Of a stretch of DNA of 64,000 bases, positions 32,144 through 52,468 are shown one piece after another (the stretch's first letter is position 1; every line of letters starts with the position of its first letter). Both the position numbers and the translations under genes were made by a program. The DNA comes from Advenella kashmirensis W13003. GTDB taxonomy: Bacteria; Pseudomonadota; Gammaproteobacteria; Burkholderiales; Burkholderiaceae_B. A model generated the notes under the pieces. That model was given only the letters and a program-made list of their open reading frames with translations, was not told where the DNA came from and did not search any database. The stretch lies in contig NZ_KI650979.1 in assembly GCF_000506985.1 (NCBI RefSeq), forward strand, positions 744,001 to 808,000, in the 5' to 3' direction.

Positions 32144-33295
32144 ATGAACAGAATACTCGAAGGCGTGCGAGTGCTGGAACTCGGGCAGGTGCTCGCCGGC
32201 CCCTTTGCTGGTGCAATTTTTGCCGATCTTGGCGCCGAAGTCGTCAAGGTGGAACGCGCCCGGGTAGGCGATGACGCTCGTCATATGGGCCCGGCATTTC
32301 ACGAAGGCGCAGCACTCAACTTCCACATTTTCAATCGTGGCAAGAACTCAATTGTCATTGACCTGAAGTCGCCCGCCGGGCTGGCCGAACTGGAGCGCCT
32401 TGCACAAGACACCGACATACTGGTTCACAATCTGCGCCCGGGCGTCACCGAACAACTGGGGATCGATGGCGCCAGCATGTGTGCGCGCCACTCTCGCCTC
32501 ATTTACTGCGCCATTTCGGCTTTCGGCCATCTCGGCCCCATGTCCGGTCAGCCAGGCTATGAGCCGCTGGTACAGGCATTCAGCGGGATGTCCAGCACCA
32601 ATGGCGGTCCCGACGACCCACCCATGCGCAGCGCGGCGTCATTATGTGACCAGGGAACAGGCATGTGGGCAGTGATCGGCGCACTTGCATTGCTGGAACG
32701 ACGACATCGAACTGGCAAAGGCGGGATCGTCCAAACCTCGCTCCTTGAGACCGCCCTGGCCTGGAACGCACAGAAAGCAGATGCCCATGTAAATGAAGGT
32801 CGTATGCCGGCTCGTCACCGTTCCGGGCATCCTGGTTTTGTACCTTATGAGTCTTTTGACACAGCAGACGATCCCATCCTGATCTGCTGCGGGAATGATC
32901 GACTGTTTGCCAAGTTATCGAAAGAACTGAACCGGCAGGACTGGGTAACCGACAGTCGGTTTAGCACCAATCGTGACCGGCTCACGCATAAAACGGAGTT
33001 ATTCGCCCAACTGGAGCCCGTGTTAAAGCAACAACCGCGCGCGCACTGGCTCACCCGCTTCGAACAGGCGGGCGTACCATGCGCACCGGTGAACACGATC
33101 CCTCAGGCACTGGCACACCCCCAAACCCAGGCGCTGGGCATGGCGCAACCGATTCCCGGGGAAGGCTTTACGCTTACCGCACTGCCCCTTTCCATTGATC
33201 ACGAACGCCCCTCGCTGCGCAGAACCGGACCACGGCTGGGCGAACATAACATTCAGTACGGCCTTGCCGAGCCACAAGGAGAGTCCGATGAGTAA
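32144..33295 (+). CDS. CaiB/BaiF family (type III) CoA-transferase
   Basis: 383 residues; the nucleophilic aspartate is Asp169 in SLCDQGTGM. The start follows a perfect AAGGAGG ribosome site. It overlaps the downstream lyase gene by eight bases, so both are translated together. The pair fits activation of a hydroxylated, methyl-branched dicarboxylic acid to its CoA ester, followed by carbon-carbon cleavage. Confidence 0.93.
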   Translation: MNRILEGVRVLELGQVLAGPFAGAIFADLGAEVVKVERARVGDDARHMGPAFHEGAALNFHIFNRGKNSIVIDLKSPAGLAELERLAQDTDILVHNLRPGVTEQLGIDGASMCARHSRLIYCAISAFGHLGPMSGQPGYEPLVQAFSGMSSTNGGPDDPPMRSAASLCDQGTGMWAVIGALALLERRHRTGKGGIVQTSLLETALAWNAQKADAHVNEGRMPARHRSGHPGFVPYESFDTADDPILICCGNDRLFAKLSKELNRQDWVTDSRFSTNRDRLTHKTELFAQLEPVLKQQPRAHWLTRFEQAGVPCAPVNTIPQALAHPQTQALGMAQPIPGEGFTLTALPLSIDHERPSLRRTGPRLGEHNIQYGLAEPQGESDE

Positions 33296-34229
33296 CCTGC
33301 CCAAACAGGTGTATATCAGTGAAGAAGGCCCGCGCGAGGGTTTTCAAATTGAAAAGGGCCCCATCCCAACTGCCGATAAGGTCCGCTTCGTCGAGGCGCT
33401 GGCTGAGACAGGGTTAAAAGAAGTTCAATGTGTCTCGTTCGTCAGCCCGACCCGAGTGCCTTCCATGGCCGACGCTGAAAAGGTGGCAGCGACTATCAAT
33501 CAAAAGAGCGGCGTGCGATACACCGGGCTGTGGCTCAATAAGCACGGCCTGCTTCGGGCCCAGGCAACGCCGCTGGACCCGATGGCCTGGGTCGGACTCT
33601 ATGCTTCCGAAACCTTCTCCGTGAACAACCAGGGCAAAGGTACGGCGGACCTCATCGCGTCACAGCGAGCGGTTCTGACCTATCTCGTCGAGCAGGCCAT
33701 TCCATTGGAATTTGGCATCATCATGACCGCTTTCGGCTGTAATTTCGAAGGAGATATTACGATCGGGCGCGTACTTGAACAGGTCGACCGCCTTCAAAGC
33801 CTGGTCGCCGAATTCAACCTGCACCTGCCTGTCCTCAAGCTTGCCGACACTGTAGGTTGGGCCAATCCGGATCGGGTAATGCGAGTGATAGGCGCGATTC
33901 GTGACAAATATCCCGAGCAGCGTCTTGGCCTGCATCTGCATGACACCCGTGGTACGGCCATGGCAAATGCATTTGCCGGACTGCAGATGGGCGTGGACTC
34001 TTTCGACAGTTCATGCGCAGGCCTGGGGGGGTGTCCTTTTGCGGGTCACGCCGGTGCAGCGGGCAATATTTGCACCGAGGATCTCGCCTTCATGTGCGAA
34101 GAAATGGGCATTTCGACCGGACTCGATCTGGATGCGCTCGTGGCGTGCGCGCACCTGGCCGAGGAAATCGTCGGGCATCCTCTGCCGGGCAAGTTGATGC
34201 GCGGAGGAACATTAACGCATTTTCGCTAA
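33288..34229 (+). CDS. HMG-CoA lyase-like protein (HMGL domain)
   Basis: A 313-residue TIM-barrel lyase. The catalytic-site signature is visible as EEGPREGFQIE (12-22, in place of the usual GPRDGLQ), SFVSPTRVPSMAD (50-62), metal-binding HLHDTRG (216-222) and the C-terminal loop GGCPFA with Cys249. HMG-CoA lyases cut 3-hydroxy-3-methylglutaryl-CoA to acetoacetate and acetyl-CoA; related enzymes act on other 3-hydroxyacyl-CoA esters. ATG 33288 lies inside the end of the CaiB gene behind AAGGAGAG. Confidence 0.9.
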   Translation: MSNLPKQVYISEEGPREGFQIEKGPIPTADKVRFVEALAETGLKEVQCVSFVSPTRVPSMADAEKVAATINQKSGVRYTGLWLNKHGLLRAQATPLDPMAWVGLYASETFSVNNQGKGTADLIASQRAVLTYLVEQAIPLEFGIIMTAFGCNFEGDITIGRVLEQVDRLQSLVAEFNLHLPVLKLADTVGWANPDRVMRVIGAIRDKYPEQRLGLHLHDTRGTAMANAFAGLQMGVDSFDSSCAGLGGCPFAGHAGAAGNICTEDLAFMCEEMGISTGLDLDALVACAHLAEEIVGHPLPGKLMRGGTLTHFR

Positions 34230-34272
34230 GTAGAGATTCAAACACTAAACAATTAAATTACGGAGACCAACC

Positions 34273-35247
34273 ATGCTGCCATCAATCAAAACAACAATCG
34301 GATTCACTTGTGCCCTGGCCTTCTGCGCCAGCGCACAGGCTGCATCGGGCCAAAGCTATCCCAACAAGCCGATCACAATCGTGGTTCCCTTTGCCGCAGG
34401 CAGCGGCACCGATCAACAGGCGCGCATCTTTGCACAGGCTTTGACAAGCGAGTACAAAGTGCCAGTCGTCGTGGATAACCGCGCAGGAGCCAGTGGATTC
34501 ATCGCATCCCAGCATGTCGCTCGGGCCGAGCCGGATGGCTACACCCTGCTCATGACGACCAATACCACACATGCAGCCAATGCGCATCTTTTCAAGAAAC
34601 TGCCTTATGACCCGGTCAAGGACTTCACGCCGGTCACGCTACTGGGCAAAGGCCAAATGATGCTCGTGGTGCAAAACGATTCACCGATCAAGTCCATATC
34701 GGACCTGCTCGCAGCCGCGCAGCAGCGTCCTGGAAAAATGAATTTCGGCAGCGGCAGTTCCTCGAGCCGGGTCGCTGGAGAAATGCTCAAGCAATTATCT
34801 AATATTGATGTGGTCAACATTCCCTATAAAAGCAATCCGATGGCGGTGACGGATTTGATGGGTGGCCAGGTCGACTTTATGTTCGCCGATGGTCCGACTG
34901 CGATTCCACAAATCAATGCAAAAAAACTGCGTGCCCTCGCCACCAGCGGCAGCCGGCGCCTGTCCATTGCACCATCAATTCCAACGGTGGCTGAAAGTGG
35001 CGTCAAGGGCTACGACATGACTTACTGGACAGGCGTGTACCTTCCTGCAAAGGCGGATCCCTCACTGGTACAACGCCTTAATGAAATGTTCATCAAGATC
35101 GCCGGACAGCCTGAGTGGAAACGCTTTCAAGAGACTACTGCGGGCGACGTAGCCACCACCACACCGGAAGGCCTTGCTCAGTTCCAGGCTGCTGAATCAC
35201 AAAAGTGGGGCCGGATTATCAAAGCAGCGGGCATCATTCCCGACTGA
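34273..35247 (+). CDS. Bug/TctC family periplasmic solute-binding protein
   Basis: 324 residues. The signal peptide ends near SAQA, and the mature protein begins ASGQSYPNKPITIVVPFAAGSGTDQQAR. ACGGAG lies upstream of the ATG. It is the third gene of the CaiB-lyase operon, 43 bases after the lyase. Confidence 0.93.
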   Translation: MLPSIKTTIGFTCALAFCASAQAASGQSYPNKPITIVVPFAAGSGTDQQARIFAQALTSEYKVPVVVDNRAGASGFIASQHVARAEPDGYTLLMTTNTTHAANAHLFKKLPYDPVKDFTPVTLLGKGQMMLVVQNDSPIKSISDLLAAAQQRPGKMNFGSGSSSSRVAGEMLKQLSNIDVVNIPYKSNPMAVTDLMGGQVDFMFADGPTAIPQINAKKLRALATSGSRRLSIAPSIPTVAESGVKGYDMTYWTGVYLPAKADPSLVQRLNEMFIKIAGQPEWKRFQETTAGDVATTTPEGLAQFQAAESQKWGRIIKAAGIIPD

Positions 35248-35255
35248 CTAAAGGC

Positions 35256-35282
35256 CACCCGTTCCGCCCAGCAAAACGGGTG
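35256..35282 (+). terminator. Hairpin after the CaiB-lyase-Bug operon
   Basis: CACCCGTT and AACGGGTG form an 8-bp stem with an 11-base loop shortly after the Bug stop codon. No T-run follows, so it may be a weak or rho-assisted terminator. Confidence 0.35.
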
Positions 35283-35378
35283 TACTCAATCGATGCAGTG
35301 CCCGGCCATGCAGATGAATTTAATCGTTAGCCCACCTATAATCAGTCTTCGGTTTCAATTTTATCAACAGGCTAATAT

Positions 35379-36347
35379 ATGAATAACATCTTCCGCGTCG
35401 GGAAATTTCTGGCAGGCTCGCTGCTGCTCATCGCGCCCTGCCTTGCAAGCGCAGCCGGCGATTATCCCGACAAGCCCATCAGTATCGTCGTGCCTTACGC
35501 CGCAGGCGGCACGTCGGATTTGATCGGGCGGGCGCTGGCAGAAAGCATGGGACGCTATCTGAAGCAAACAATCGTCATCGAAAACAAGCCTGGCGCAGCC
35601 GGATCCATGGGTGCGCAGGAAATGGTTCGCACGCGCCCCGATGGTTATAAACTGACCCTGTCGCCTCACGGTATTTTCAGACAGCCATATCTGCAAAAAA
35701 CCCGCTATGACCCGATCAAGGACCTGACCTATATTGCGTCTTTTTCCAATTATGATTTTGCACTGGCCGTAGACGCCAAGTCGCCCCTGAAAACAGTCCA
35801 GGAGTTTGTCGAGTACGCGAAGCAACATCCCGAAGAGATGACTGTGGGAACGCCCGGCCGCTTTACCGGTAATCAAATGGTCATGGTGGAACTCAATAAC
35901 GCCACCGGCGCCAAACTGACGCATGTCCCATTCAAGGGAGATGCCGAGGCAATTACCGCATTGATGGGCGGCCATGTGAAGGCTGTTGTCAGCACCAACA
36001 CGATCCTGCCATACTATAAATCGGGCACTGTTCGAGTCCTGGCAGTAGCTTCAAAAGACAGGCTGGCGGCATTCGACTCCGTACCCACCTTTACCGAAGC
36101 CGGTTACCCAGTTGTGATACCGTCACCGCTGGGTCTGGCCGGGCCCAAAGGCCTGCCGCCTGAAATCGTAGAAAAACTGGATGCGGCCGTGAAAGCGGCT
36201 ACGCAGGACCCGGTCTTTCTGAGAGCCATCAGCGAATACGGAATACAGACGTATTATATGGATCACAAGCAATACGCCGATTTTGCTGTCAAAACCTTTG
36301 CGGAAGAAAAGGACATTGTCGGCAAAATGAACGACGACAATCGCTAA
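35379..36347 (+). CDS. Bug/TctC family periplasmic solute-binding protein
   Basis: 322 residues with signal peptide ending near LASA and mature start AGDYPDKPISIVVPYAAGGTSDLIGR. It is 131 bases after the previous Bug gene with a hairpin between them, so it probably has its own promoter. It is convergent with a TetR gene. The two neighbouring receptors are not close copies of each other. Confidence 0.92.
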   Translation: MNNIFRVGKFLAGSLLLIAPCLASAAGDYPDKPISIVVPYAAGGTSDLIGRALAESMGRYLKQTIVIENKPGAAGSMGAQEMVRTRPDGYKLTLSPHGIFRQPYLQKTRYDPIKDLTYIASFSNYDFALAVDAKSPLKTVQEFVEYAKQHPEEMTVGTPGRFTGNQMVMVELNNATGAKLTHVPFKGDAEAITALMGGHVKAVVSTNTILPYYKSGTVRVLAVASKDRLAAFDSVPTFTEAGYPVVIPSPLGLAGPKGLPPEIVEKLDAAVKAATQDPVFLRAISEYGIQTYYMDHKQYADFAVKTFAEEKDIVGKMNDDNR

Positions 36348-36425: not shown

Positions 36426-37127
36426 TTAATGAGTGCGAGCCGGGTCTGTCAACACTCCCGTCAACATCGCAATCACGAAATCGACATACTGACTGACCGA
36501 AATCGACTGATTACGATACTTACGCCGCTTGAGATACCAATCTTGCATAATCGCCTTTATGGTTGATGACAGCAACCTGGCATTGATCGGCAAAAAATGA
36601 CCTTTCTCAATTCCATCTGAAATGATATTGAAAAATATATCTTCAATTTCCTGCTCAACTGCAATGGCCGCCTTCATTTGCTTTTTCGGCAGACTTTTAA
36701 CTTCCATAAACGAAAAATAAAACCACGGCAACATTAATTCACTTAGAAAAAGATGAGAGGAGACTGCGGCCCGCAATTGATCAAAAGGAGCGACGATATC
36801 CTCTATGCTCTTTAAAAGAACGCGTTTGGTAAGCAAAAACCCATGCCCTTGTATCAGGACAAGCAAATCATCTTTATTGCGTATATACGCATATAAGCCC
36901 CCAATACTGAACCCCGAGTCGGCACACAAATCACGTAACGACATGGCGTGAAAGCCCTTGGAGCCCGCCAGCCGCAGAGTCGAATCGATGATACGCACGA
37001 GATTTTTAACCGCCACATGCTCCTTCTGAATCCGGATCATATCCCCGTGCTGCAAATATAATTCACGGCAAATATCCGCCTTGGTCAAACTTAAATCTGT
37101 CTTGAAAGTTTCAAAATCAATTTTCAT
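36426..37127 (-). CDS. TetR family transcriptional regulator
   Basis: 233 residues. The DNA-binding domain does not start at the N-terminus but lies at about residues 45-90 (LAGSKGFHAMSLRDLCADSGFSIGGLYAYIRNKDDL), after a 40-residue leader. It is the last gene of the long minus-strand run, 70 bases after the DUF6285 gene, and may regulate the kinase/dehydrogenase module upstream of it. Confidence 0.88.
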   Translation of the reverse strand: MKIDFETFKTDLSLTKADICRELYLQHGDMIRIQKEHVAVKNLVRIIDSTLRLAGSKGFHAMSLRDLCADSGFSIGGLYAYIRNKDDLLVLIQGHGFLLTKRVLLKSIEDIVAPFDQLRAAVSSHLFLSELMLPWFYFSFMEVKSLPKKQMKAAIAVEQEIEDIFFNIISDGIEKGHFLPINARLLSSTIKAIMQDWYLKRRKYRNQSISVSQYVDFVIAMLTGVLTDPARTH

Positions 37128-37197: not shown

Positions 37198-37572
37198 TTA
37201 CAAGCTCAAATATTTGGGATTGCTGATCTGCAGTTTGCGCCTCGTCAGCGCAAGCAACATCTCCGCTAAAGGTTGTTGCCATCTATCAGGAATGCTTCTT
37301 TGGCGGATGAGATCAGCAAGCATGGCCGCATTATCACAATCGACCTTTTGACCTGATTCAACGCCGACTTCAATTAAAAATAGTCCAAGCGACTTTTCTT
37401 CTTCCAGGTCTGACCGCTTTTCAGCATCCAGCTCGCGCGCAGCAATTCCCATGGCATTAGCCAACATCATCGTCGTGTAGCGCGACTCATCGGGCAATAT
37501 CGGCAGTATTTCTTCAAGCAACACGCGGCGCGCCGTAAGAAGCAAATTCTGCCCGTCTGGCTGATTACCCAT
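37198..37572 (-). CDS. DUF6285 protein, LvaB-like kinase partner
   Basis: A 124-residue all-helical protein of the DUF6285 type, with conserved-looking segments RRVLLEEILPILPDESRY near the start and MLANAMGIAARELDA. In the levulinate pathway of Pseudomonas putida a small protein of similar size (LvaB) is required, together with the LvaA kinase, to phosphorylate 4-hydroxyacyl-CoA. Its start overlaps the end of the kinase gene by eight bases, consistent with a two-protein complex. Assignment rests on gene order and on memory of that system, not on an alignment. Confidence 0.75.
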   Translation of the reverse strand: MGNQPDGQNLLLTARRVLLEEILPILPDESRYTTMMLANAMGIAARELDAEKRSDLEEEKSLGLFLIEVGVESGQKVDCDNAAMLADLIRQRSIPDRWQQPLAEMLLALTRRKLQISNPKYLSL

Positions 37573-38596
37573 CTGTATTCTCCATCGTCAAACACTGGTT
37601 AAGCACATCAAACTCCATTTCCGGCACCATCCGCCCTGTCAATGCAAGTTCCAGCGAAATTTCCTCACCCGAAAGATGCCGTTGCGCCTGTTGCAGGGCA
37701 ATAATTGCCCATCGAACCATTGCCATGACCTCCCAATACTTTACTCTTTCAGGCTCTACGTCTACACACGCAACATTTGCATAGCCGTCAAAAAGATCAC
37801 GCTTGTGACCCATCCCTCCGACTTCCTTGTCGACCTTCCCGAAGCGCCAGCTTCTCGCGCAAAGCCACCCCAAGTCTTCATACGGATCACTCCAGGCGGC
37901 AAATTCCCAGTCCAATATTCCGGTAAGTCGGCCCTCATAGACCATATAATTTCCTGTGCGGAAGTCGCAGTGACACAAGGAAAGTGGCAGCGGCGAAGGC
38001 ATACGATCTTCCAGCCAGTTCAATGCCCATTCCAATACAGGGTGAGGCTCGGATATGTCATCCAAGGCGGTTCTATAATTTCTAATACGCGCTGATGCCG
38101 CAGTCGGTTGAGGTATTTCCAAAAAGGAGAGATCTGCACTTTCGGGCTGAATGCGATGCAAACGAGCCAGCTCCCGCCCCAGAGAGCGCACAAGCGCGGA
38201 TGCTTCACCCTCCGACAATTCCTGCCTGACAAGCTGTCGTCCATTGGCCACTCCAGCAACCTTGCGCATGATGCAGAAGGGTTGTCCAATGACGGACTTA
38301 TCTGTGCATAACCAGAGTGGCTCCGGCGCCGTCACGCCCGCAGCATAAGCGCATTTGATCACCGCAAATTCCTGCTCACGGGTCAGAGAGGCAGCAATCG
38401 TCGACGGCGCATCACTGCGAACCACAAATGTGTGCGTACCGGGACAGCTTCCGCCATCCATTACAACAGAAAGAGCATGGTTATTCTGTATCGCTCCACC
38501 CGAAAGTTTGGTAAAGCCGGTGACCTGAATACTGTTTGCCCTGGTATTACCTGCGATGAAGTCTGCAATACGAAAGGGATCCGACATCTCGTCCAT
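37565..38596 (-). CDS. APH-type phosphotransferase, LvaA/ACAD10-11-like
   Basis: A 343-residue kinase with the aminoglycoside-phosphotransferase/choline-kinase fold. The catalytic loop is HCDFRTGN (209-216, Asp211 and Asn216), the metal-binding Asp229 is in ILDWEFA, and a nucleotide-loop region LSGGAIQNN is at 31-39. Relatives fused to or encoded beside acyl-CoA-dehydrogenase homologues (human ACAD10/11, bacterial LvaA) phosphorylate the hydroxyl of 4-hydroxyacyl-CoA. Its position three bases after such a dehydrogenase gene, and its overlap with the DUF6285 gene, argue for that role rather than antibiotic resistance. Confidence 0.86.
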   Translation of the reverse strand: MDEMSDPFRIADFIAGNTRANSIQVTGFTKLSGGAIQNNHALSVVMDGGSCPGTHTFVVRSDAPSTIAASLTREQEFAVIKCAYAAGVTAPEPLWLCTDKSVIGQPFCIMRKVAGVANGRQLVRQELSEGEASALVRSLGRELARLHRIQPESADLSFLEIPQPTAASARIRNYRTALDDISEPHPVLEWALNWLEDRMPSPLPLSLCHCDFRTGNYMVYEGRLTGILDWEFAAWSDPYEDLGWLCARSWRFGKVDKEVGGMGHKRDLFDGYANVACVDVEPERVKYWEVMAMVRWAIIALQQAQRHLSGEEISLELALTGRMVPEMEFDVLNQCLTMENTDG

Positions 38597-38599
38597 TGC

Positions 38600-39796
38600 C
38601 TATCCCCATTTCCAGAAATCAATCCCTTCATTCATCAAATTTTTGGACAAAACCATTTTATGTACTTCGGAAGCGCCATCCACCAAACGGGCCTGCCGCG
38701 CATAGCGATAAATCCATTCCAGGGGGGTATCTTTTGAATAACCACGTGCGCCACATAACTGAATGGCAGTGTCAACAGCCTTGTGCAGCGTATTGGACAC
38801 AACCACCTTGGCCATGGACACTTCCTTTCGTGCAAAATCTCCCTGGTCCAGTTTCCAGGCGGCATGCATGGTCAACAGGCGCCCTATCTGTATCTCCATC
38901 GCTGCCTCGCCGAGCAACCACTGTACGCCTTCACGATCAGCCAGTCGGAAACCGAAGGATTCACGATGAGAGACATATTCCGTGGCAATTTCCAGTGATC
39001 TCTTTGCCAGACCCAACCAGCGCATGCAGTGCGTCAACCTGGCAGGCCCCAATCTGATTTGAGTCAGTTTCAAGCCGTCGCCGATCTCCATCAGACGATG
39101 ATGATCCGGAATACGCAAGTCATTGAATTGCAATTCACAATGCCCTCCGTGTTCTTCGGGTCCCATAATCGGAATACGGCGGATGATCTCCCAGCCTGGA
39201 TCGTCTTTATGAAACAAAAAGGCACTAAGCCCCTTGCGTTTATCTTCGGATGTTTTCGCCATCAAAATGAAATGGCTGGCCACGCCCGCGCCTGTAATAA
39301 AATGCTTGCGTCCGTTGATGACCCAGTCATTTCCTTCTTTTGTGGCGGTAGTCAACATCATGGAAGGATCGGAGCCACTGCCCGGCGCAGGCTCGGTCAT
39401 AACAAATGATGATCGAACAGCGCCATCAATAATGGGCTGCAGCCATGTCGTTTTTTGCTCCTCGGTCGCGACCTTATTCAGCACCATCATATTGCCATCA
39501 TCCGGGGCGGCAGAATTGAAAACCACGGGGCCGAAAATAGAGCGATTCATTTCTTCATAGCAAGGTGCCATTTCAGCCATACTCAGCCCTTGTCCGCCTC
39601 GCTCCACCGGCATTTGCAGGGACCAAAGCCCCCGTTCCCTCGCCTTTGCCTGCATCTGCGCCAAAATTGCCGGCGCAATGTTCTCATGCTCATCATACGA
39701 GTCTGCCACTTTTTCCAGCGGAATCAGTTCATCGTCCACAAATTGGCGGATACGCTGCCTTAGCCGTTCTGTCTTTTCAGATAATTTAAAATCCAT
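38600..39796 (-). CDS. Acyl-CoA dehydrogenase homologue, LvaC/ACAD11-like
   Basis: 398 residues of the acyl-CoA dehydrogenase fold. It carries features of the ACAD10/11 clade, such as NSAAPDDGNMMVL (94-106) and RLGPARLTHCMRW (248-260). The base position of isovaleryl-type enzymes is Ala252, and the medium-chain position is Asp373 (LVDGASEVH), so neither known glutamate is present. In LvaC-type enzymes the substrate is a phosphorylated 4-hydroxyacyl-CoA from which phosphate is lost, leading to a 3-hydroxyacyl-CoA for beta-oxidation. It lies between the SDR and kinase genes with gaps of 10 and 3 bases. Confidence 0.88.
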   Translation of the reverse strand: MDFKLSEKTERLRQRIRQFVDDELIPLEKVADSYDEHENIAPAILAQMQAKARERGLWSLQMPVERGGQGLSMAEMAPCYEEMNRSIFGPVVFNSAAPDDGNMMVLNKVATEEQKTTWLQPIIDGAVRSSFVMTEPAPGSGSDPSMMLTTATKEGNDWVINGRKHFITGAGVASHFILMAKTSEDKRKGLSAFLFHKDDPGWEIIRRIPIMGPEEHGGHCELQFNDLRIPDHHRLMEIGDGLKLTQIRLGPARLTHCMRWLGLAKRSLEIATEYVSHRESFGFRLADREGVQWLLGEAAMEIQIGRLLTMHAAWKLDQGDFARKEVSMAKVVVSNTLHKAVDTAIQLCGARGYSKDTPLEWIYRYARQARLVDGASEVHKMVLSKNLMNEGIDFWKWG

Positions 39797-39806
39797 CTCT
39801 TAATCC

Positions 39807-40574
39807 TCACAGTGAAGAATGCAAATGACCGCCATCCACTACAATAGTGCTGCCCGTCATATATTTTGACGCCTCTGACGCCAGTAAAAGCAAAGCGCCG
39901 TCCAAGTCCTCAGGCTGGCCCAGACGCCGTAAGGGAACACGGTTGATTAGTGCTTTGCCGGCATCAGAGTCAAAAAACGCTCGGTTCAGCTCCGTCTCGA
40001 TGTAGCCTGGCGCCAAAGCATTGACCCGAATACCATAACGCGCCCACTCCAGTGCCAGCGCGCGAGTCATTTGCTCCAGCGCGGCCTTTGATGCCGTGTA
40101 AGGTATCACCGCGCCGGCGACACGATGCCCCAAAATCGAGGTGATATTGATAATCGAGCCCGGACAGTTCGCACCGATCAATCGCCTGGCCATTTCATTT
40201 GCAATGATCCAGCTGCCTTTTAAATTGGTGTCCATCACCGAAGAGAACTCTTCGACAGACATATCAATGGATTTCTTGTTGATCGCTATCCCAGCATTGC
40301 ACACTAGTAAATCCACCAATCCCAGACGGTCCTGGATCTGGTCCAGTCCGCTTCTGACCGATTCCGCGCATGTCACGTCCATGACTATCGGCATAGCTTC
40401 AATGGACTGCTTGACTAGTTCCACCTCCAAATCTTGCAGTGGCGACAGCCGTCTGCCCGCCAGTGCAACTTTGGCTCCGGCCCTCCCCAGCACATAGGCA
40501 AAACGACTTCCGAGACTTCCGGCCGCGCCTGTCACCAGAGCGATTTTTCCCGCCAGACTTAACGTCGCTTCCAT
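39807..40574 (-). CDS. Short-chain dehydrogenase/reductase (SDR), LvaD-like position
   Basis: A 255-residue classical SDR: cofactor motif TGAAGSLG at 15-22, NAG at 93-95 and catalytic Ser146, Tyr159 and Lys163 (YTASK). In the corresponding levulinate operon an SDR reduces the 4-keto group of the acyl-CoA to a 4-hydroxyl, supplying the kinase substrate; the same role is proposed here. It is preceded by a CACCTCC-type ribosome site on the minus strand and a 121-base gap after the GntR gene that could hold a promoter. Confidence 0.86.
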   Translation of the reverse strand: MEATLSLAGKIALVTGAAGSLGSRFAYVLGRAGAKVALAGRRLSPLQDLEVELVKQSIEAMPIVMDVTCAESVRSGLDQIQDRLGLVDLLVCNAGIAINKKSIDMSVEEFSSVMDTNLKGSWIIANEMARRLIGANCPGSIINITSILGHRVAGAVIPYTASKAALEQMTRALALEWARYGIRVNALAPGYIETELNRAFFDSDAGKALINRVPLRRLGQPEDLDGALLLLASEASKYMTGSTIVVDGGHLHSSL

Positions 40575-40695
40575 TTCACCTCCTATATGATGAATATAAA
40601 TTTCTGACTCCGTTTCGTCAAAATAAAACGAATGTTCTATTTATTTATAAAAAAACTCCTCTGATTCTTAATAATCTACGTGTTAACGAATAATT

Positions 40696-41496
40696 TTACG
40701 GTTTGAAGTGCTCGGACAAGTCAAGTTCGATACCGAAAAGATCACCCCTGTAGCTAGATATACCGTAGTAAACGACCCGATTGCGCTCATCGGTAAACAC
40801 ACGAATCGCATGAGCCACTGGCGCCGCCATAGGGATACGGAGCTTTTCCGCTTCATGAATATCGGCAGCAGCTACGGTGAAACGCTCTTTACCGCCCGTA
40901 ATCGGCATGGAAGAATACTTTTGCACAAGTCTGAAGAGTTTATATTTTTTTTCAGCTCCGGCCGGAAATTTCCTGGAAATTGCCTCGGCAACATATACAG
41001 TAGATTGGCAGTAAGGGCGACCATCATCGCTGTCGACTTTATCGATGCGAACGTACGAATCAAATGGCTCGCCGACCGCCCATCTGTTGTCGGGCAATGG
41101 CTGCCCCGTCAGGCGGGTATCGAGTTGAACACTGTACTTTTCCGGATCGGTATAGGACATCGTTGTGAGGGACTTGAACATGGGGAGCGTCTGTCGCTCT
41201 CCTGGAGAATGGATCACTTGCGTTCCCCGGCCACGTTCGACTGTGATCAGTCCTTCATCAGCAAGAATCTGCAGACCATGACTGACAGTGATCCGGCCCA
41301 GGTTATACGTTTTGCATAATTGGGCAATGCTTGGTAAAAGATCGCCCGGCGCGAATTCACCGCCCAATATGCGTCCCCGTAGCACGCTGGCGAACTGTGC
41401 ATATAAAGTGGTCGCCCCCTGCGTAAAGACCGGTGCAGGACGTGGAAATACACGATCTTCCTCGTGTTTTGGTTTGCTGCGAGTTGACGAAATCAT
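40696..41496 (-). CDS. GntR family regulator, HutC/UTRA subfamily
   Basis: 266 residues: N-terminal GntR winged helix (about 30-95, LRGRILGGEFAPGDLLPSIAQLCKTYNLGR) and a C-terminal UTRA ligand domain (about 110-260). A basic leader of 30 residues precedes the DNA-binding domain. It sits in the middle of the long minus-strand run, 38 bases after the iron-dehydrogenase homologue and 121 bases before the SDR. It is thus placed to respond to an intermediate of either half. Confidence 0.9.
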   Translation of the reverse strand: MISSTRSKPKHEEDRVFPRPAPVFTQGATTLYAQFASVLRGRILGGEFAPGDLLPSIAQLCKTYNLGRITVSHGLQILADEGLITVERGRGTQVIHSPGERQTLPMFKSLTTMSYTDPEKYSVQLDTRLTGQPLPDNRWAVGEPFDSYVRIDKVDSDDGRPYCQSTVYVAEAISRKFPAGAEKKYKLFRLVQKYSSMPITGGKERFTVAAADIHEAEKLRIPMAAPVAHAIRVFTDERNRVVYYGISSYRGDLFGIELDLSEHFKP

Positions 41497-41534
41497 AAGC
41501 TTTGTTTATCCCCATGGCACCCGATGGGCTTTTT

Positions 41535-42677
41535 TTACCACGCCGTTTCAATAATATCCTCTGGCTTGCCTGCCACGCCATTTGCAGCCGCAAACCAGTC
41601 ACGCTTCACATCGCATACTAGCGCCGGGATGCTCTCCCGAGGCACACCAAGATCGCGCAGACGGCAAGCATAGCCCAGCGCCGAAAAACCTTGCGCAAGC
41701 ACATCCGCGCATTCCTGCAGCGAGACATCGCGAGCAAGTCCGAGCGCACTTGCGATTAATCTTACCTGAGCCAAAGTAGCGCCATCATAGCGCGAAAGCA
41801 CAATAGGCAGCAATACGGCATGACAGGCACCATTGGAAATACCGAGACGGGCTCCAATCGCATGGTCAATCGCCGAACATACACCTCCACCCGCATGATC
41901 GGTCCCCTGCCCGCACAGGACTGCGGCCAGGGCCAGGTTCACACGCGCTGCAATATTCTCTGGATTGTCCTTCAATTGCGAAAGCATGTTCCAAGTCAGG
42001 TATAGAGCATGACTTAGGGTCGCATCGGAAAGGGGATGTGCCGTTGAGGATAGAATGCCTTCGATCGCCATACCCATAAGATGGATGGCAGCAGATGACA
42101 CCAGTTTAACCTCGGCAGTCATCAACAACTCAGGCTCTAAAAACACCGCTGCAGCACGTGTTTTCGGATCATACAGCGCAAGGCGCGTACGTGCTGACTC
42201 CTCCAGCACAGCACTGCCTGCTTTGGCGATGGCGGTACTGGGTACCGTCGGTACGACGAATATCGGCAACTTGGCTTTCATCAGTCGAGGACTGACGAGT
42301 TGACCGTCCCTGGCGTGGGTTGCCATCACAGGAAAATCATCTCCTTCAGCCAAGATGATGGCGGTGGCACGTGCGGTCACCATTGCGGAACCTCCGCCAA
42401 GCGCGATGAGGCAATCGCCCTTGACCGACCGGGTGAGTCTTGCCGATGCGCGTATTGTCTCGACAGGGCTGTGAGGGCGCACGCCACTAAACCACTGTGC
42501 AGGCTTGCCATCCAGCGCATGCTCGATCAATGCATGGACACGAGCGTTGCGATCTAATGTCGCGCCGCTTATCACAACGGGCCGCGAGCAGCCATGCCGA
42601 GCCAGTTCGGAACGAAGTGATTGAAGACTGCCTTCTCCATCGTAAATACGCTGCGCCGCGGAAAAATATCTGTTCAT
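41535..42677 (-). CDS. Iron-containing alcohol dehydrogenase/maleylacetate reductase homologue
   Basis: A 380-residue family III dehydrogenase fold with GGGSAM at 94-99 and the VVPTVPSTA segment. The residues expected to bind Fe2+ or Zn2+ (normally D-x3-H, H and H) read His199, Met203 (HLMGM), His272 and Asn282, and the Asp of GGGSxxD is Val100. Only one of the four usual ligands is plainly kept. It may bind a different metal, none, or catalyse another reaction. Its start overlaps the stop of the oxidoreductase gene as ATGA, so both are translated together. Confidence 0.82.
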   Translation of the reverse strand: MNRYFSAAQRIYDGEGSLQSLRSELARHGCSRPVVISGATLDRNARVHALIEHALDGKPAQWFSGVRPHSPVETIRASARLTRSVKGDCLIALGGGSAMVTARATAIILAEGDDFPVMATHARDGQLVSPRLMKAKLPIFVVPTVPSTAIAKAGSAVLEESARTRLALYDPKTRAAAVFLEPELLMTAEVKLVSSAAIHLMGMAIEGILSSTAHPLSDATLSHALYLTWNMLSQLKDNPENIAARVNLALAAVLCGQGTDHAGGGVCSAIDHAIGARLGISNGACHAVLLPIVLSRYDGATLAQVRLIASALGLARDVSLQECADVLAQGFSALGYACRLRDLGVPRESIPALVCDVKRDWFAAANGVAGKPEDIIETAW

Positions 42678-43663
42678 AATTTTATGATGGCCTTGCCAGA
42701 ATTCTTACCTTGAAGCATGGCGATGAATGCGGGTACCGCAAGATCCAGCCCCTCTTGAACCTCTTCGCGTATCGCGATCCTGCCCTCTCGATACCAGGCT
42801 CCCATATCACGCAGGAAATCGGGACGGCGGTTCGCATGATCGCTCAGAATGAACCCTCTGACCGAAAGCCGCCGCGCAAGAATATCAAACCAGCCTGGTC
42901 CGGACGCAGGGGAATCGTTATACTCGGATATCTGGCCGCAGACCACAATGCGTCCGTTACGATTCATCAGCGGCCAAGCGACATCCCTGACGTGGCCGCC
43001 CACGTTGTCGAAGTACACGTCTATACCTGCTGAACATGCTTCCCTTAGTGCTTCATCGAATGCCGCATCCTTGTAATCAACTGCAGCGTCATAGCCAAAG
43101 TCACGCCGCAGATGCGTCATTTTCTCCTGACCGCCGGCAATACCCACCACACGACATCCTTTGATACGCGCAATCTGCCCCACCATGGAGCCGACCGCTC
43201 CGCTTGCAGCAGACACGACCACCGTCTCCCCCATTTGGGGCAAGCCAAAATCGAGCAACCCGACATAGGCGGTCATCCCCGATGTACCCAACGCACCAAG
43301 CCATACCGTAAGCGGCGCGATATCGGACTCGACCTTCGTTACGGCGTGACCATCGGAAATCGAGTATTCCTGCCACCCTCCGTCTTGTATCATGACGACG
43401 TCGCCTTCACGATATAAGGGGTTTCGGCTTTTTAGTACAGTACCGAGCGCCTGTCCGTATATCACATCTCCGATCTTCATCGGAGCGCGATAAGAAGCAG
43501 CCTCTCCCATCTGAAGTCGGGCCGCAGGTGCCAATCCCAAATGGGTATGACGAATCAGCACCTCGCCTTCACCAGGCACCGGCACGGACGACTCGATCAT
43601 CCGAAAATTTTCGGGGCATGGCAATCCAGTCGGTCTGGAGGCAAGAATAATCTGTCGATTCAC
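42674..43663 (-). CDS. Zinc-independent MDR NADPH oxidoreductase (PTGR/CurA type)
   Basis: 329 residues with the cofactor motif VSAASGAVGSMVGQIA and the GIDVYFDNVGG segment typical of leukotriene-B4-dehydrogenase-like enzymes, which reduce the C=C bond of enones. GTG 43663 behind GGGA gives the family N-terminus (NRQIILASRPTGLP); an ATG 57 bases upstream would add a foreign leader. It lies between a Bug gene and the coupled iron-dehydrogenase homologue and may saturate a conjugated intermediate. Confidence 0.88.
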   Translation of the reverse strand: MNRQIILASRPTGLPCPENFRMIESSVPVPGEGEVLIRHTHLGLAPAARLQMGEAASYRAPMKIGDVIYGQALGTVLKSRNPLYREGDVVMIQDGGWQEYSISDGHAVTKVESDIAPLTVWLGALGTSGMTAYVGLLDFGLPQMGETVVVSAASGAVGSMVGQIARIKGCRVVGIAGGQEKMTHLRRDFGYDAAVDYKDAAFDEALREACSAGIDVYFDNVGGHVRDVAWPLMNRNGRIVVCGQISEYNDSPASGPGWFDILARRLSVRGFILSDHANRRPDFLRDMGAWYREGRIAIREEVQEGLDLAVPAFIAMLQGKNSGKAIIKL

Positions 43664-43767
43664 GAGAATTCCCAGTTTTGTTAGAAATACGCGGACATGC
43701 TGCTTGTGGTGCATATACACAGCATACTACCTCACGAGAAGGTCGCTTCCCCACGAACGAGAGCCGG

Positions 43768-44718
43768 TTATTGTGGCTTGATGTCAAGCTCCCGGATCAC
43801 CCCGGCCCATAATTTTTCATCGATACGAATCTGCTTTTCTAATGACTCCGCTGTACCCGGCCTGGGTGTCAGACCCATGCCGGCAAATCGTTTCTTGATC
43901 GAAGGTTGTGCCAACACCGTGTTCAGCGCTGTATTGTAGGCATCCACCACGTTTTGCGGTGTATTGGCGGGCAATAGCATTGCATACCAACCGTCCGTTA
44001 TAAATCCGTCATATCCCGACTCCGCGATCGTCGGCGTATCGGGAAAGTCTGCCATACGATCTTTGGAGGTCACGGCCAAGGCCTTTAACCTGCCTGCCTT
44101 CACTTGGGGAGCAGCAAATGCCACCGTGGACAGTGTGAAATCCACATGCCCGCCTATCACATCCGATTGCGCCTGCGATGAGCTCTTGTAATGCACCATG
44201 CTGACATCCACTCCTGTCTGCTTTTTAAGACGCTCCAGCATCAAGTGTTGGGGAGTTCCGAGTCCTGCCGACCCAAAGGTCACGGTACGTTTGTCCTTTT
44301 TAGCAAGCTCTATCATATCTTTCAGATCTTTGCCCGGCAAGTCAGGCCTGGCCACCAGGATGTAGGGTGTTGAGGCGATCATGCCAACCGCCCGGAAGCT
44401 TTTCACAGTATCAAACGGCAAATCGGGGAAAAGGCTTTTCGCCGCAGGGTGCGCGTTGTAAGTAATAAGCACCGTCTTACCATCCGGCGCGGCCTTTGCG
44501 ACGTGTTCCGCTGCAATATTGCTTGAGGCTCCCGGACGGTTTTCGACGATAAAGGTACGGTCCATCTGTTCACCCAGCACATCCGAAATGGCGCGAGTGA
44601 CACTATCCATGCCCGCACCTGGGGCACTGCCGATAATGATTTTGGCAACTTCTTTTGCCGGCACCACCGTATGTAAACTGATCGCGACCAGCGCAACGAC
44701 AACTCCTTTCCAATTCAT
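43768..44718 (-). CDS. Bug/TctC family periplasmic solute-binding protein
   Basis: 316 residues. The mature start is unusual, with KIIIGSAPGAGMDSVTR where most members have a YP.KPI.VVP segment. It is a clear paralogue of the next gene upstream: both share LGTPQHLM-ERLKKQTGVD, VDFTLST and DGWYAMLLPA. The signal peptide is short and ends near the AKEVA region. Confidence 0.92.
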   Translation of the reverse strand: MNWKGVVVALVAISLHTVVPAKEVAKIIIGSAPGAGMDSVTRAISDVLGEQMDRTFIVENRPGASSNIAAEHVAKAAPDGKTVLITYNAHPAAKSLFPDLPFDTVKSFRAVGMIASTPYILVARPDLPGKDLKDMIELAKKDKRTVTFGSAGLGTPQHLMLERLKKQTGVDVSMVHYKSSSQAQSDVIGGHVDFTLSTVAFAAPQVKAGRLKALAVTSKDRMADFPDTPTIAESGYDGFITDGWYAMLLPANTPQNVVDAYNTALNTVLAQPSIKKRFAGMGLTPRPGTAESLEKQIRIDEKLWAGVIRELDIKPQ

Positions 44719-44791
44719 GCTTATCTCCTATGATGCTTCTTATTAACGTTATATCGGTGTGAGGGCCCCACGATCCATCACAATCATGGTT

Positions 44792-45748
44792 TTAATCCGG
44801 TTTGATCCCTTGTTCGGTGATCACCTTTTTCCACTGAATGGCATCATGCTCAATGAGCTGGTCCAGCTCTCCAGGCGTTCCCGGAGACGGCGTCAGCCCG
44901 GCCGCCTTGAATTGTTTACGCAACGTATCAGTCGCAAGCACCTTATTCAAGGCAGCATTGTACTGCTGCACAATCGAATCCGGCGTCCCGGCAGGCAGCA
45001 GCATGGCATACCAGCCATCTGTCACAAAGCCTTCGTAACCTGCTTCCTTTATAGTTATGGCGTTCGGGAACTGCGGCAGCCGCTCTTCGCTTGTCACCGC
45101 GAGCACTTTCATTTTTCCCGCAGCGACATGTGGTTCGCAGAACGCGATCGTCGACAAGGTAAAGTCAACACGCCCTGCCATTACGTCTATCTGACCCTGC
45201 GACGGGTTGCTATACTGAGCCATGACAATATCCACACCGGTCTGCTTCTTGAGGCGTTCCATCATAAGATGCTGAGGCGTTCCCAGGCCGATTGAAGCAA
45301 AAGACAGTGAACGCCCGTCTTTTTTGGCCAGATCGATGGTCTCCGTGAGCGTTGAACCCGGCAGGGACGGGTTAGCCACGATGGCATACGGCGTGGTGGC
45401 AACTTTGCCAACAGCTCTGAAGCTGGTGACCGGATCGAACGGTAAATTGGGATGCAATGCGCCGGCGATGGGATGCACGTTGAAGGTGATTAAAACCGTA
45501 CTCCCGTCGGCTGGCGCTTTCGCGACATAGGCTGCAGCAATGTTGTAGGAAGCCCCAGGGCGATTTTCAACAACGATTTTTTGCCCAAGAACCGGAGCCA
45601 TACTATTTGCAAGCAATTGTGTAACATGGTCTACGCCGCCACCAGGCGCACTGCCAGTAACAAATTTGATATATTGCTGCGCATGCGCGCTTCCCATTCC
45701 AAGTACGCTCGATAGTGACAAGGCGAGAATGATTTCTCTGCATTTCAT
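44792..45748 (-). CDS. Bug/TctC family periplasmic solute-binding protein
   Basis: 318 residues with signal peptide ending at SAHA and mature start QQYIKFVTGSAPGGGVDHVTQ. ATG 45748 follows GGGAGAC; a 22-residue in-frame extension is rejected. It is the tandem paralogue of the receptor at 43768, 73 bases apart, both inside the long minus-strand run after the CaiB gene. Confidence 0.93.
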   Translation of the reverse strand: MKCREIILALSLSSVLGMGSAHAQQYIKFVTGSAPGGGVDHVTQLLANSMAPVLGQKIVVENRPGASYNIAAAYVAKAPADGSTVLITFNVHPIAGALHPNLPFDPVTSFRAVGKVATTPYAIVANPSLPGSTLTETIDLAKKDGRSLSFASIGLGTPQHLMMERLKKQTGVDIVMAQYSNPSQGQIDVMAGRVDFTLSTIAFCEPHVAAGKMKVLAVTSEERLPQFPNAITIKEAGYEGFVTDGWYAMLLPAGTPDSIVQQYNAALNKVLATDTLRKQFKAAGLTPSPGTPGELDQLIEHDAIQWKKVITEQGIKPD

Positions 45749-45837
45749 GCTGTGTCTCCCTATTTTTGTGTAATAACGTCGAATCCAGCCTGTACCTCCT
45801 GTCCCGAAAAACACGTTCTCCAGACGTGTAACCAGGA

Positions 45838-47091
45838 CTACTCATCAACCTTGGCCTCATCCTGCTTATGCGCCGGTGCCTGCAGCGTACTCTTGTGCCG
45901 GATCAAATTCTCGATCTCCTCATCCGTATATCCGACTTCTTTCAATATCTGACAACTATGTTCACCCAGCATAGGCGGCAAACGGTAATTTGTGGGCGGC
46001 GTCCCGTGCCATTCGCTGGGCACGCTCATTTCCCGGATTGTTCCGACAACCGGATGCTCCGCCTCGGAAAAAAAATCAATATCACGCAGGTGTGGATCGT
46101 CAAGCAAGCTCTCGGGCGTGTTCATCGGAAACACCGGTATATCGGCACTTTCAAGTGCCTTTTGCCATTCTTCGGCTGTGCGCTGGAGCATTTGTTCACT
46201 CACAAAAGCGCTCAGCTCTTCACTATGAGCAGTCCGTGTGGTCATTGTCGCCAGCCTGGGATCCGTCTCCCACATATCAGACCGTCCAATAACTTGCAGA
46301 AAGGCCTTCCAGTGATGATCATGGTAGATCGTGCAGCACACCCACGCGTCCTTGGTGCGAAATGGTGTGCGCGAGCGCGCCAGAATGCGCGGGTAGCCAA
46401 AACCACCCTGGGATGGAATAAATTTTTGCCCGTACAAATGATCGCCGAGCACATAAGGCACCATGGTCTCAAACATGGGAACATCCACCCGCTGCCCTTT
46501 CCCCGTTCGGTCTCGACTGTATAATGCAGCAAGAATGACGCCGAACGCATAATAGCCAACGGTGCGGTCTGCGATATTCACCGGGATATAGCGCGGGTTT
46601 CCATCGGTATTTTCTGCTACAACCCACGGCAGCGACGTTGCCGCCTGTATCAGATCGTCAAACGCCGGAGACCGCGCATAACGCCCCCTTTGCGAAAACC
46701 CCACCAGGCTGACATACACAATCTGGGGGTTGACTTCCGCCAAATCCTCGTAGGCCAGTTTCAGACGTTCCATTCCCTTGGGACGAACATTGGTCGTGAC
46801 AACATCTGCATCCCTGACCAAACGCAGGAAGGCCTCACGCCCATCCGGCTTCTTCAGATCCAGCACGATACTGCGCTTGTTGCGGTTGAGTCCCAAATAA
46901 AGCGGCCCCATTTTTTCATCGCCATGGGGGCCGATCTTGCGCACGGCGTCTCCATCGACCGCCTCGACTTTAATCACATCGGCCCCGAGATCCGCCAACA
47001 TCTGGGTGGTTGACGGTCCCATCAGTACTGCAGTCAGATCGATGATCTTGAGCCCCGCAAGCGGCCCGGAAAAATGCTGCTCTTTCGACAT
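45838..47091 (-). CDS. CaiB/BaiF family (type III) CoA-transferase
   Basis: 417 residues; the nucleophilic aspartate is Asp175 in NIADRTVGYY. Conserved N-terminal DLTAVLMGP and LNRNKRSIVLDLK are seen. It is the only CoA-activating gene in the 36-52 kb run, where no acyl-CoA synthetase is present, so it is the probable entry enzyme for both the beta-oxidation-like and the kinase-dependent halves. Confidence 0.92.
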   Translation of the reverse strand: MSKEQHFSGPLAGLKIIDLTAVLMGPSTTQMLADLGADVIKVEAVDGDAVRKIGPHGDEKMGPLYLGLNRNKRSIVLDLKKPDGREAFLRLVRDADVVTTNVRPKGMERLKLAYEDLAEVNPQIVYVSLVGFSQRGRYARSPAFDDLIQAATSLPWVVAENTDGNPRYIPVNIADRTVGYYAFGVILAALYSRDRTGKGQRVDVPMFETMVPYVLGDHLYGQKFIPSQGGFGYPRILARSRTPFRTKDAWVCCTIYHDHHWKAFLQVIGRSDMWETDPRLATMTTRTAHSEELSAFVSEQMLQRTAEEWQKALESADIPVFPMNTPESLLDDPHLRDIDFFSEAEHPVVGTIREMSVPSEWHGTPPTNYRLPPMLGEHSCQILKEVGYTDEEIENLIRHKSTLQAPAHKQDEAKVDE

Positions 47092-47197
47092 GATTTCCCT
47101 TTCAGCAAAATAGCGATTTGAATCTTAAATAACGCACAGGCAACCCGATGGAATCAAGGATCACGAGTCAAGTCTGATCGGCTTGTCCCGCTTGTGA

Positions 47198-48319
47198 TCA
47201 TGCATCCAATCCTGCCTTCTCCCGAAGCCCCTCGACAGTGTCTGCAAACTCCTCGAGCATGTCGTATATCACCTGGCGCACCGAGCTTTCCTGGTTAATG
47301 CTACCCACGATCTGACCAACCGGACATGTCATGTAATCAAGTGCGCGAGCCCGATCAATACGCAATCGGGCCTCCACATTCAGAACGCTTTGCCACGGCA
47401 TCGGCAATGGCTGAGGAGCATCAGCTTGTACCCATGCGTCGGTGAACTTGCTGCGCAGCATCCGGCCCGGCTTACCTGTTTTGGACCGCGTCTGAACTGC
47501 ATCACCGGAACGTGCCTTGAACAGCAATTGCTTCATTTCATCGGAAAGATCGCTTTCCCGTGTACCATGCCAGACCGAACCACACCAGATACCCTGGGCA
47601 CCCAGAGTAAATGCAGCCGCCATCTGGCGACCTCGGCCAATTCCGCCTGCAGCCAGTACCGGCATGGGAAACACAGCGTCCACTACCTCGGGCCATAACA
47701 CCATCGACGTCACGACACCCGTGTGCCCCGCCGCTTCGGTGCCTTGAGCAATCACAAGGTCCAATCCTGCCTGCTTGTGCTTAAGTGCATGTTCGACCTT
47801 TCCCGTCATGGCGCCGACCTTGATCCCATTGGCATGCAAGCGCTGCAAAATTTCGGGGGGCGGTGAGCCCAATGCGCTTACGACCAGCTTGATATTCGAA
47901 TGCGTCAACACCACGTCAAGCAGTTCATTGGAGAATTCGGGGGTCATATGCAGACGATCGAGTTCCTCTTTCATAAGGGCGTCACGTTCTTCTGCCGGCA
48001 GGGGTGGAATGCCGGCTGAATCCAGTAGTGAACGCTGCCATTGCACATGGGCCTTTGGCAACGCATCGGGATCCAGGGAAGTATCTCCGACAACGTCATA
48101 TTTTTGAGGCAGCAATAGGTTGACGCCATAGGGCTTGTCTCCTATCTGGTCATCAATCCATTTGAGCTCCATTTCAAGCAGCTCGGGCGTATAGTATGCG
48201 GTGCCCAGGCAGCCCAGCCCGCCGGCTCGCGTAATCTCCGATACCACATTTCTGCAATGAGAGAATCCGAATACTGGAATCTCAATGCCAAACATTTGAC
48301 ATAGCGCGTTGTTCATCAT
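47198..48319 (-). CDS. Nitronate monooxygenase-like FMN enzyme
   Basis: A 373-residue TIM-barrel flavoprotein of the NPD/2-nitropropane-dioxygenase family. The FMN-binding part shows AQGTEAAGHTG, then VLAAGGIGRGRQMAAAF and GAQGIWCGSVW. Family members oxidise nitronates, but many act as enoyl reductases or quinone reductases and are annotated only by fold. It is 15 bases before the AtuA-like gene in transcription order reversed (downstream of it), clearly in the same operon. Confidence 0.85.
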   Translation of the reverse strand: MMNNALCQMFGIEIPVFGFSHCRNVVSEITRAGGLGCLGTAYYTPELLEMELKWIDDQIGDKPYGVNLLLPQKYDVVGDTSLDPDALPKAHVQWQRSLLDSAGIPPLPAEERDALMKEELDRLHMTPEFSNELLDVVLTHSNIKLVVSALGSPPPEILQRLHANGIKVGAMTGKVEHALKHKQAGLDLVIAQGTEAAGHTGVVTSMVLWPEVVDAVFPMPVLAAGGIGRGRQMAAAFTLGAQGIWCGSVWHGTRESDLSDEMKQLLFKARSGDAVQTRSKTGKPGRMLRSKFTDAWVQADAPQPLPMPWQSVLNVEARLRIDRARALDYMTCPVGQIVGSINQESSVRQVIYDMLEEFADTVEGLREKAGLDA

Positions 48320-48334
48320 GTCTCGTCCTTTCCT

Positions 48335-50934: not shown

Positions 50935-50944
50935 GTCTCTCTCC

Positions 50945-52111: not shown

Positions 52112-52468
52112 CCAAAATCTCCATTCATTCAAAGAATTAGAATTGCTACCGGATCGCTATTACCTTTGAAATACCTGCACTCCTCAGTATCGATATGCTC
52201 AAGTTAAAATGAGTCTATTCATATTCTAATGACCTGTCAATAGGATGTTTACGAAGATAATGTTTGCCTGATGCCGGTGCACGCTTTCACGAACTGTACC
52301 TGCCTGTTCAAGCGCAAACACCTGGACAAGGGCGCCTATTGATAGCGGCGTAGCCGTAAATAACAGGCAAAGAGACGTGCAACATCTCCACATGACAAAA
52401 ATATGAGAAGATGAATAACCGGATTCCGGTGCATTGTTTCATTCCAGTTTTTATACAGTCAGTTGACC
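52112..52468. other. Intergenic region, divergent promoters
   Basis: 357 bases without a convincing gene. It must hold the promoter of the 52-to-36 kb run and that of the sirtuin gene. I see AT-rich stretches around 52135 and 52205-52260 but no operator I would name with confidence, and no terminator. Confidence 0.55.

Follow-up and report, generated by a model that had tools for sequence, protein, structure and literature searches.

The major route described for the entry of 4-hydroxy acids into β-oxidation is phosphorylation with subsequent elimination (PMC12440821). The closest described systems are the lva core of Pseudomonas putida and P. citronellolis, the acyl-CoA dehydrogenase (ACAD) homologues ACAD10 and ACAD11 of mammalian 4-hydroxy acid catabolism, and 25-hydroxysteroid kinase (25-HSK), an APH-fold kinase that primes a hydroxyl for phosphate elimination. 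According to PMC6692424, the levulinate-induced cluster of P. citronellolis comprises an ALAD protein of 323 aa, an ActP protein of 548 aa, a ligase of 531 aa, a short-chain dehydrogenase/reductase (SDR) of 255 aa and an ACAD 78% identical to LvaC; the paper reports that the cluster has no lvaB homologue. A module of four genes with the same family content lies in a 64,000-nucleotide stretch of Advenella kashmirensis W13003 (contig NZ_KI650979.1; the whole stretch is called the window). It differs from the lva system in its ACAD branch, regulator, CoA supply and gene order. Judged mostly from residues, clades and gene pairing, it appears to work like the lva core, while its substrate, product and CoA donor can at best be inferred. 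The module is probably a self-contained, TetR-controlled catabolic unit, in which 4-oxo- or 4-hydroxyacyl-CoA would be phosphorylated and, by elimination, passed into β-oxidation as in lva. Its four open reading frames (ORFs), all intact in the window ORF list, span 37198-40574 on the minus strand:

39807-40574, minus strand: SDR, predicted LvaD-like ketoreductase, 255 aa; PF13561 (adh_short_C2), 192.1 bits (cut-off 27)
38600-39796, minus strand: ACAD homologue, predicted to be phosphate-eliminating, 398 aa; ACAD domains above cut-off
37565-38596, minus strand: APH-type kinase, LvaA-like, 343 aa; PF01636, 141.5 bits (cut-off 23.2)
37198-37572, minus strand: DUF6285 protein, LvaB-like kinase partner, 124 aa; PF19802, 53.5 bits (cut-off 28.1)

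The four families assigned here by the original prediction are borne out by Pfam matches above the curated cut-offs, and they occur together likewise in the lva-type reference locus L220, so that the proposed likeness in content holds with respect to lva-type clusters. The proposed likeness in gene order does not, since transcription runs SDR-ACAD-kinase-DUF6285, which in lva letters is D-C-A-B and not A-B-C-D. The genes are tightly packed, with 10 bp between SDR and ACAD, 3 bp between ACAD and kinase, and an 8 bp overlap of kinase and DUF6285. The SDR has TGAAGSLG from residue 15 with S146, Y159 and K163, and the kinase has HCDFRTGN from residue 209 and DWE from residue 229. The 4.85 Mb genome gives a single match to the window kinase. 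A PADLOC search returned no match for the four proteins.

The structures closest to the window ACAD are 4hr3 (247 bits, 38% identical) and ACAD11 (2wbi, 8v3u and 8v3v, 229-234 bits), the next scoring 182 bits. In ACAD11, R626, H634 and R637 stand beside the catalytic D753, and PMC12440821 describes them as conserved between ACAD10/11 and LvaC only. Their equivalents in the window ACAD are R248, H256, R259 and D373. The R/H/R/D set was looked for in 250 aligned ACAD rows: 4hr3, two window proteins, and 247 rows of at least 330 aa that come from the loci or the window region. It is complete in 192 rows, including all 104 of window-type score with the window copy counted, and in none of the other 58, the window's second ACAD among them. 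Rows shorter than 330 aa were excluded from this survey, and for the most distant ACADs the residues were read off a rough alignment. Human ACAD11 numbering was fixed by Arg627 in the 2wbi alignment, which places Pro463 on a proline, in agreement with PMC11342911; the equivalent residue of the window ACAD is P90.

Grouping by hidden Markov model score placed one row of signature EIRG (L071|4) among the lva-type ACADs. A quick tree of 63 rows, which took 22 of the 104 window-type and 24 of the 80 ACAD11-type rows, had groups R, N and M not clean and the L105 ACAD among lva-type rows. After removal of L071|4 and seven other long or near-copy rows, a careful tree of 55 rows resolved the signature-bearing ACADs into a window-type clade (22 rows, support 100/100), an lva-type clade (five rows, 100/100) and, apart from the window type, an ACAD11/4hr3-type clade (22 rows, 97/93). 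The window-type clade is sister to the lva-type clade (96/89); the window ACAD is 40-43% identical to lva-type ACADs and at least 66% identical to the window-type rows compared. An ACAD11-side ACAD on plasmid pHG1 of Cupriavidus necator H16 (L211, 8001-9227) has no kinase among its annotated neighbours, in a plasmid gene table that is incomplete.

The window kinase is 46-49% identical to kinases of lva-type clusters. Among structures its sequence matches 9o56, 3dxp and ACAD11 with E values of 6e-17 to 1e-10, and 25-HSK more weakly (7e-4). A quick tree of 73 rows, sampled from 150 called kinases, falls into halves of 18 and 55 rows separated by branches of support 100. In the smaller half the partners are ACAD11-side ACADs (13), window-type ACADs (4) and another (1), and 17 of the 18 have no DUF6285 gene nearby; nearly all of the 55 have one. 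The window kinase lies in a clade of 27 rows (support 99) that includes five of the six lva-type kinases, with lva-type and window-type rows interleaved. The original prediction had tied its reading to the placement of kinase and dehydrogenase with LvaA, LvaC and ACAD11. The placements obtained do not refute that reading: the kinase falls inside the clade with the lva-type kinases, though the ACAD stands beside the lva-type clade as its sister and not as a member. The ACAD11-type residues and the kinase placement together support the proposed chemistry of phosphorylation and elimination. From the two trees it follows that the kinase and its partner are common ground with the lva-type clusters, while the ACAD can come from either of two branches. 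In four loci (L067, L077, L078 and L082, the last three close to one another and near-copies) the partner of the window-type ACAD is a kinase from the smaller, ACAD11-side half, and no DUF6285 gene lies nearby; such a pairing would suit a shared kind of phosphorylated substrate.

The overlap of the kinase and DUF6285 genes had been taken to suggest a complex, and the fetched loci support this. Of 120 DUF6285 genes, a count that is not dereplicated and includes a few genomes under two locus ids, 94 lie directly after a kinase gene on the same strand (64 of them overlapping it), 23 are fused to a kinase gene and three do neither. Fused proteins of 503-525 aa are encoded in L013, L016 and L017 (Alcaligenaceae) and in L021 (Yanghanlia). 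The window DUF6285 protein is 38% identical to that of an lva-type cluster. Its AlphaFold2 model is all-helical, with a predicted local distance difference test score (pLDDT) of 90.7; the fold search of the PDB gave no match better than E 0.79, and the sequence search of the PDB found no relative (best E 0.26). The natural 525-aa fusion of L017 is modelled with pLDDT 92.8 and a predicted template modelling score (pTM) of 0.92; going by these model scores alone, the fusion is consistent with DUF6285 docked on the kinase in a fixed manner. For P. putida, PMC6692424 reports, citing work of 2017, that in a pulldown the 12-kDa LvaB interacted with LvaA. The literature search found no paper naming DUF6285. 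Seven loci (L112, L116, L120-L123 and L148) carry kinase-DUF6285 fusions beside ACADs that are without the R/H/R/D set and keep the catalytic Glu; DUF6285 kinases near Glu-type ACADs may represent a second use beyond the R/H/R/D ACADs. Elsewhere a kinase-DUF6285 pair adjoins a gene like that of class II fructose-bisphosphate aldolase (L092, 9505-12048) or one for a DUF7064/DUF7065 protein (L138, 7115-10243).

The module recurs in many genomes. Among 86 ACAD-anchored loci (80 from a contig scan, being the best 80 of 178 relatives, with five plasmid records and the window), the SDR gene is directly upstream of the ACAD gene in 59 and the kinase gene directly downstream in 60, and the complete four-gene order is found in 33. 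An AMP-forming ligase of one family is nearby in 44 of the 86 (in 40 of the 72 whose downstream sequence exceeds 4 kb); 32 loci have a TetR gene of a single family nearby, and 21 a LIV-type ABC transporter. These neighbourhood counts are lower bounds, because some contigs end early and the gene caller misses genes. Genes were called with a codon-model caller, which replaced longest-ORF calls where antisense ORFs won in GC-rich loci; it shortens some genes (the window GntR and Fe-ADH, and the L106 and L107 kinases), so that adjacency counts are approximate. The co-occurrence of the four genes is not due to chance. The related loci are spread over Alpha-, Beta- and Gammaproteobacteria, and DUF6285 genes are present, with the own genome counted each time, in 3 of 10 genomes from the genus, 15 of 300 from the order and 12 of 370 from the class. 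In the order to which a Marinobacter genome belongs, 43 of 245 genomes have them.

By the rule of the script, the core is followed by a TetR gene in four loci, the window, L014, L017 and L021. Of these, L017 shows a ligase ahead of its TetR gene, and the L014 stretch contains, at another place, a ligase belonging to the same broad cluster. In both congeners with the module, G003 and G008, the ligase gene sits between those for DUF6285 and TetR. In the window a profile of the relatives' ligase found no match among ORFs of at least 80 aa, as expected from the original observation that no CoA ligase adjoins the module. The simplest reading is that the ligase was lost in the window lineage, since the own genome has no match at E≤1e-80 to the congener enzyme, while G003 and G008 keep it. 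The context described earlier as new is so only in part: the core itself is present in many genomes, about half of the loci have the ligase nearby, and its absence here looks like a loss.

The features taken as regulatory lie at the two ends of the module:

36426-37127, minus strand: TetR regulator at the module end, 233 aa; PF00440; 62-78% identity to its counterparts in the seven other loci that match best
40593-40621, minus strand: sigma-70-like promoter TTGACG-17-TATATT before the SDR gene (consensus scan, 10/12 matches)
40623-40640, minus strand: candidate operator, a TetR-type imperfect palindrome ATAGAACATTCGTTTTAT placed 48 bp ahead of the SDR start

A palindrome near ATAGAACGATCGTTCTAT stands upstream of the SDR gene in 41 of 59 upstream regions, counted within six mismatches, a loose limit. 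With a matrix made from 22 unique non-Advenella sites, 40623-40640 is the top site of the window (19.0, the next being 14.1), and 2 of 20 shuffled windows hold a site scoring above 19. The window palindrome is credible because it lies 48 bp before the SDR gene and both congeners have a site at 49 bp. A pattern built with the window site included matches nowhere else in the own genome, and in each congener it matches the module site and one more. The promoter-like site lies downstream of the palindrome, between it and the SDR gene; sites of this kind are not enriched in the scanned region (2 found against 5.9 expected). The palindrome and the promoter-like site just upstream of the SDR gene suggest that the module is transcribed independently of the neighbouring GntR-to-CaiB block, which did not accompany it in the other loci, genomes and plasmids searched.

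In the proposed pathway, the SDR would reduce a 4-oxoacyl-CoA to the 4-hydroxyacyl-CoA, and the kinase with its DUF6285 subunit would phosphorylate the 4-hydroxyl at the expense of ATP, as clade and motifs suggest. In the FAD-dependent ACAD homologue, Asp373 would take the C2 proton while Arg248, His256 and Arg259 hold the phosphate, which is eliminated. The products, if the chemistry can be transferred from ACAD10/11 and LvaC, would be 2-enoyl-CoA and some 3-hydroxyacyl-CoA, both destined for β-oxidation. In many relatives the neighbouring AMP-forming ligase would make the CoA ester, and the window genome would obtain it from another enzyme. It is plausible that the substrate is other than levulinate.

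Several points weigh against this scheme. To our knowledge, no activity, substrate or product is known for any window-type member. The proline at the Pro463 position is present in just 146 of the 192 signature rows and in five of the 58 others, so P90 is not diagnostic. There is no kinase within five genes in 12 of the 78 window-type loci with enough flank, and eight kinases of the 55-row half sit beside ACAD11-side ACADs and have DUF6285, which therefore also occurs outside the lva-type and window-type branches. At E≤1e-80 the G003 ligase as query matches G003 itself and G008 (96%) but finds nothing in the own genome. The tree program warned that two long branches join at the node uniting the window-type and lva-type ACADs, and 'lva-type' is defined here by gene content and order, the comparison being with such clusters and not with the P. 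putida LvaA-D sequences. The lva-type ACADs are 36-39% identical to 4hr3 (50-54% positives), which conflicts with the 56-62% identity between LvaC and ACAD10/11 given in PMC11342911. Should the true LvaC prove to be a member of the ACAD11-side clade, the sister relationship would fall, whereas the evidence from the residues would stand.

The lva-type reference used for comparison, L220, is from a genome whose genus is inferred to be Pseudomonas. It encodes an ALAD protein (323 aa), an SSF symporter (548 aa), a DUF485 protein and an AMP ligase (532 aa), and a PrpR_N/sigma-54 regulator gene (650 aa) is divergent from those for kinase, DUF6285, His-phosphatase, ACAD and SDR (255 aa). This is the layout of the levulinate-induced cluster as given in PMC6692424, except that L220, unlike the cluster reported there, has DUF6285 between kinase and phosphatase. 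The window module shares with the lva core its four families, the kinase clade, the active-site residues of the ACAD and an SDR 48-53% identical to lva-type SDRs. It departs from it in running D-C-A-B and not kinase-LvaB-ACAD-SDR, in an ACAD of the sister clade, in a TetR regulator instead of the PrpR_N/sigma-54 activator, in the LIV ABC transporter that 21 of 86 relatives have instead of an ActP-type symporter, and in having neither ligase nor His-phosphatase. Because of order, ACAD clade, ligase and regulator, it was not filed as an lva operon. With ACAD10/ACAD11 and 4hr3-like proteins it shares the R/H/R/Asp site and the kinase-plus-ACAD logic, but its kinase and ACAD are separate genes and the kinase is from a distant clade. 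A gene of the His-phosphatase family recurs beside such kinases (L220, 7638-8357; L100, 9034-9738; L004, 14620-17960; L216, 11138-11842), the L004 copy being apparently split by an IS21-type element; the recurrent enzyme possibly clears dead-end phospho-compounds.

That the substrate is levulinate after all, with the lva pathway in another regulatory and transport wrapping, is rather unlikely. The SDR and kinase are as close to their lva-type counterparts (48-53% and 46-49%) as to those of some window-type loci, L004, L095 and L100 (51-53% and 47-48%), and the two types of kinase interleave in one clade; the ACADs, however, are 40-43% identical between types against at least 66% to the window-type rows compared, the two types have different regulators and transporters, and their ligases resemble each other only distantly. 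Most improbable is a reading in which the kinase, like 25-HSK, acts on another hydroxyl and the ACAD is a dehydrogenase of the ordinary kind. Although the best fold matches to the model of the kinase-DUF6285 fusion include structures of 25-HSK, their sequence match to the window kinase is far weaker than those of 9o56, 3dxp and ACAD11, and the ACAD has Asp at the catalytic position together with the R/H/R cluster. The 25-HSK substrate is a tertiary steroid alcohol, and PMC8449060 states that the lyase gene of its pathway is unknown.

The missing ligase bears on two further readings. The window module could be a remnant whose ligase and transporter are gone, leaving genes without a pathway. The absence of a ligase from the locus and, at E≤1e-80, from the genome, when both congeners have one, and of a LivK-type gene from the window would fit; yet the four ORFs and the catalytic residues are intact, the operator-like and promoter-like sites are retained, L014 and L021 likewise have TetR directly after the core, and the SDR, the one gene compared in this way, differs from that of a congener by 0.25 nonsynonymous (dN) and 1.4 synonymous (dS) substitutions per site. 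A remnant is thus unlikely. Equally doubtful is that the upstream block at 40696-52132 belongs to the same pathway, its CaiB protein supplying the CoA ester. This block, on the minus strand, encodes GntR, Fe-ADH, a curcumin-/enone-reductase-like MDR, two Bug receptors, CaiB (45838-47091, minus strand, PF02515), NMO-like and AtuA-like proteins, ECH and an ACAD. It follows the module's strand with gaps of at most 121 bp and would account for the ligase loss, and L014 too has its core among Bug, CaiB and ECH genes, though it also carries, at a greater distance and on the opposite strand, a ligase from the same broad cluster. Against a shared pathway, none of the fetched loci has a match to GntR or Fe-ADH and only two have one to the MDR (38-40% identical); Fe-ADH matches at E≤1e-70 in 2 of 250 genomes of the order, the own included; plasmids hold only short pieces; and the module has operator-like and promoter-like sites of its own after the GntR gene. 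The GntR-to-CaiB block was not found with the module in the loci, genomes and plasmids searched, and it looks like a separate catabolic cluster. The CaiB gene named in the original prediction is present, but comparison with other loci lends it no support as CoA donor: the closest match to CaiB among the fetched loci is 32% identical, and this reading is kept as an alternative only.

On the other side of the module, a second CoA-transferase cluster on the plus strand (32144-36347) has a CaiB-like gene, an HMG-CoA-lyase-like gene and two Bug receptor genes. Seven window genes within 21639-45814 fall in one Bug/TctC-like receptor cluster, an expansion of binding proteins of the tripartite tricarboxylate type.

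Beyond this locus, it may tentatively be proposed, at somewhat less than even confidence, that the window-type ACADs are a third phosphate-eliminating lineage, acting on 4-hydroxyacyl-CoA other than 4-hydroxyvaleryl-CoA, and that DUF6285 is a subunit dedicated to a broad family of kinases for acyl-CoA hydroxyls, a family that also supplies Glu-base ACADs and other enzymes. The locus would add a second DUF6285-linked ACAD branch to the phosphorylation and elimination of 4-hydroxy acids. DUF6285 gains from it a testable role, that of a kinase subunit, for which the natural kinase-DUF6285 fusions of the relatives provide ready-made single-chain constructs.

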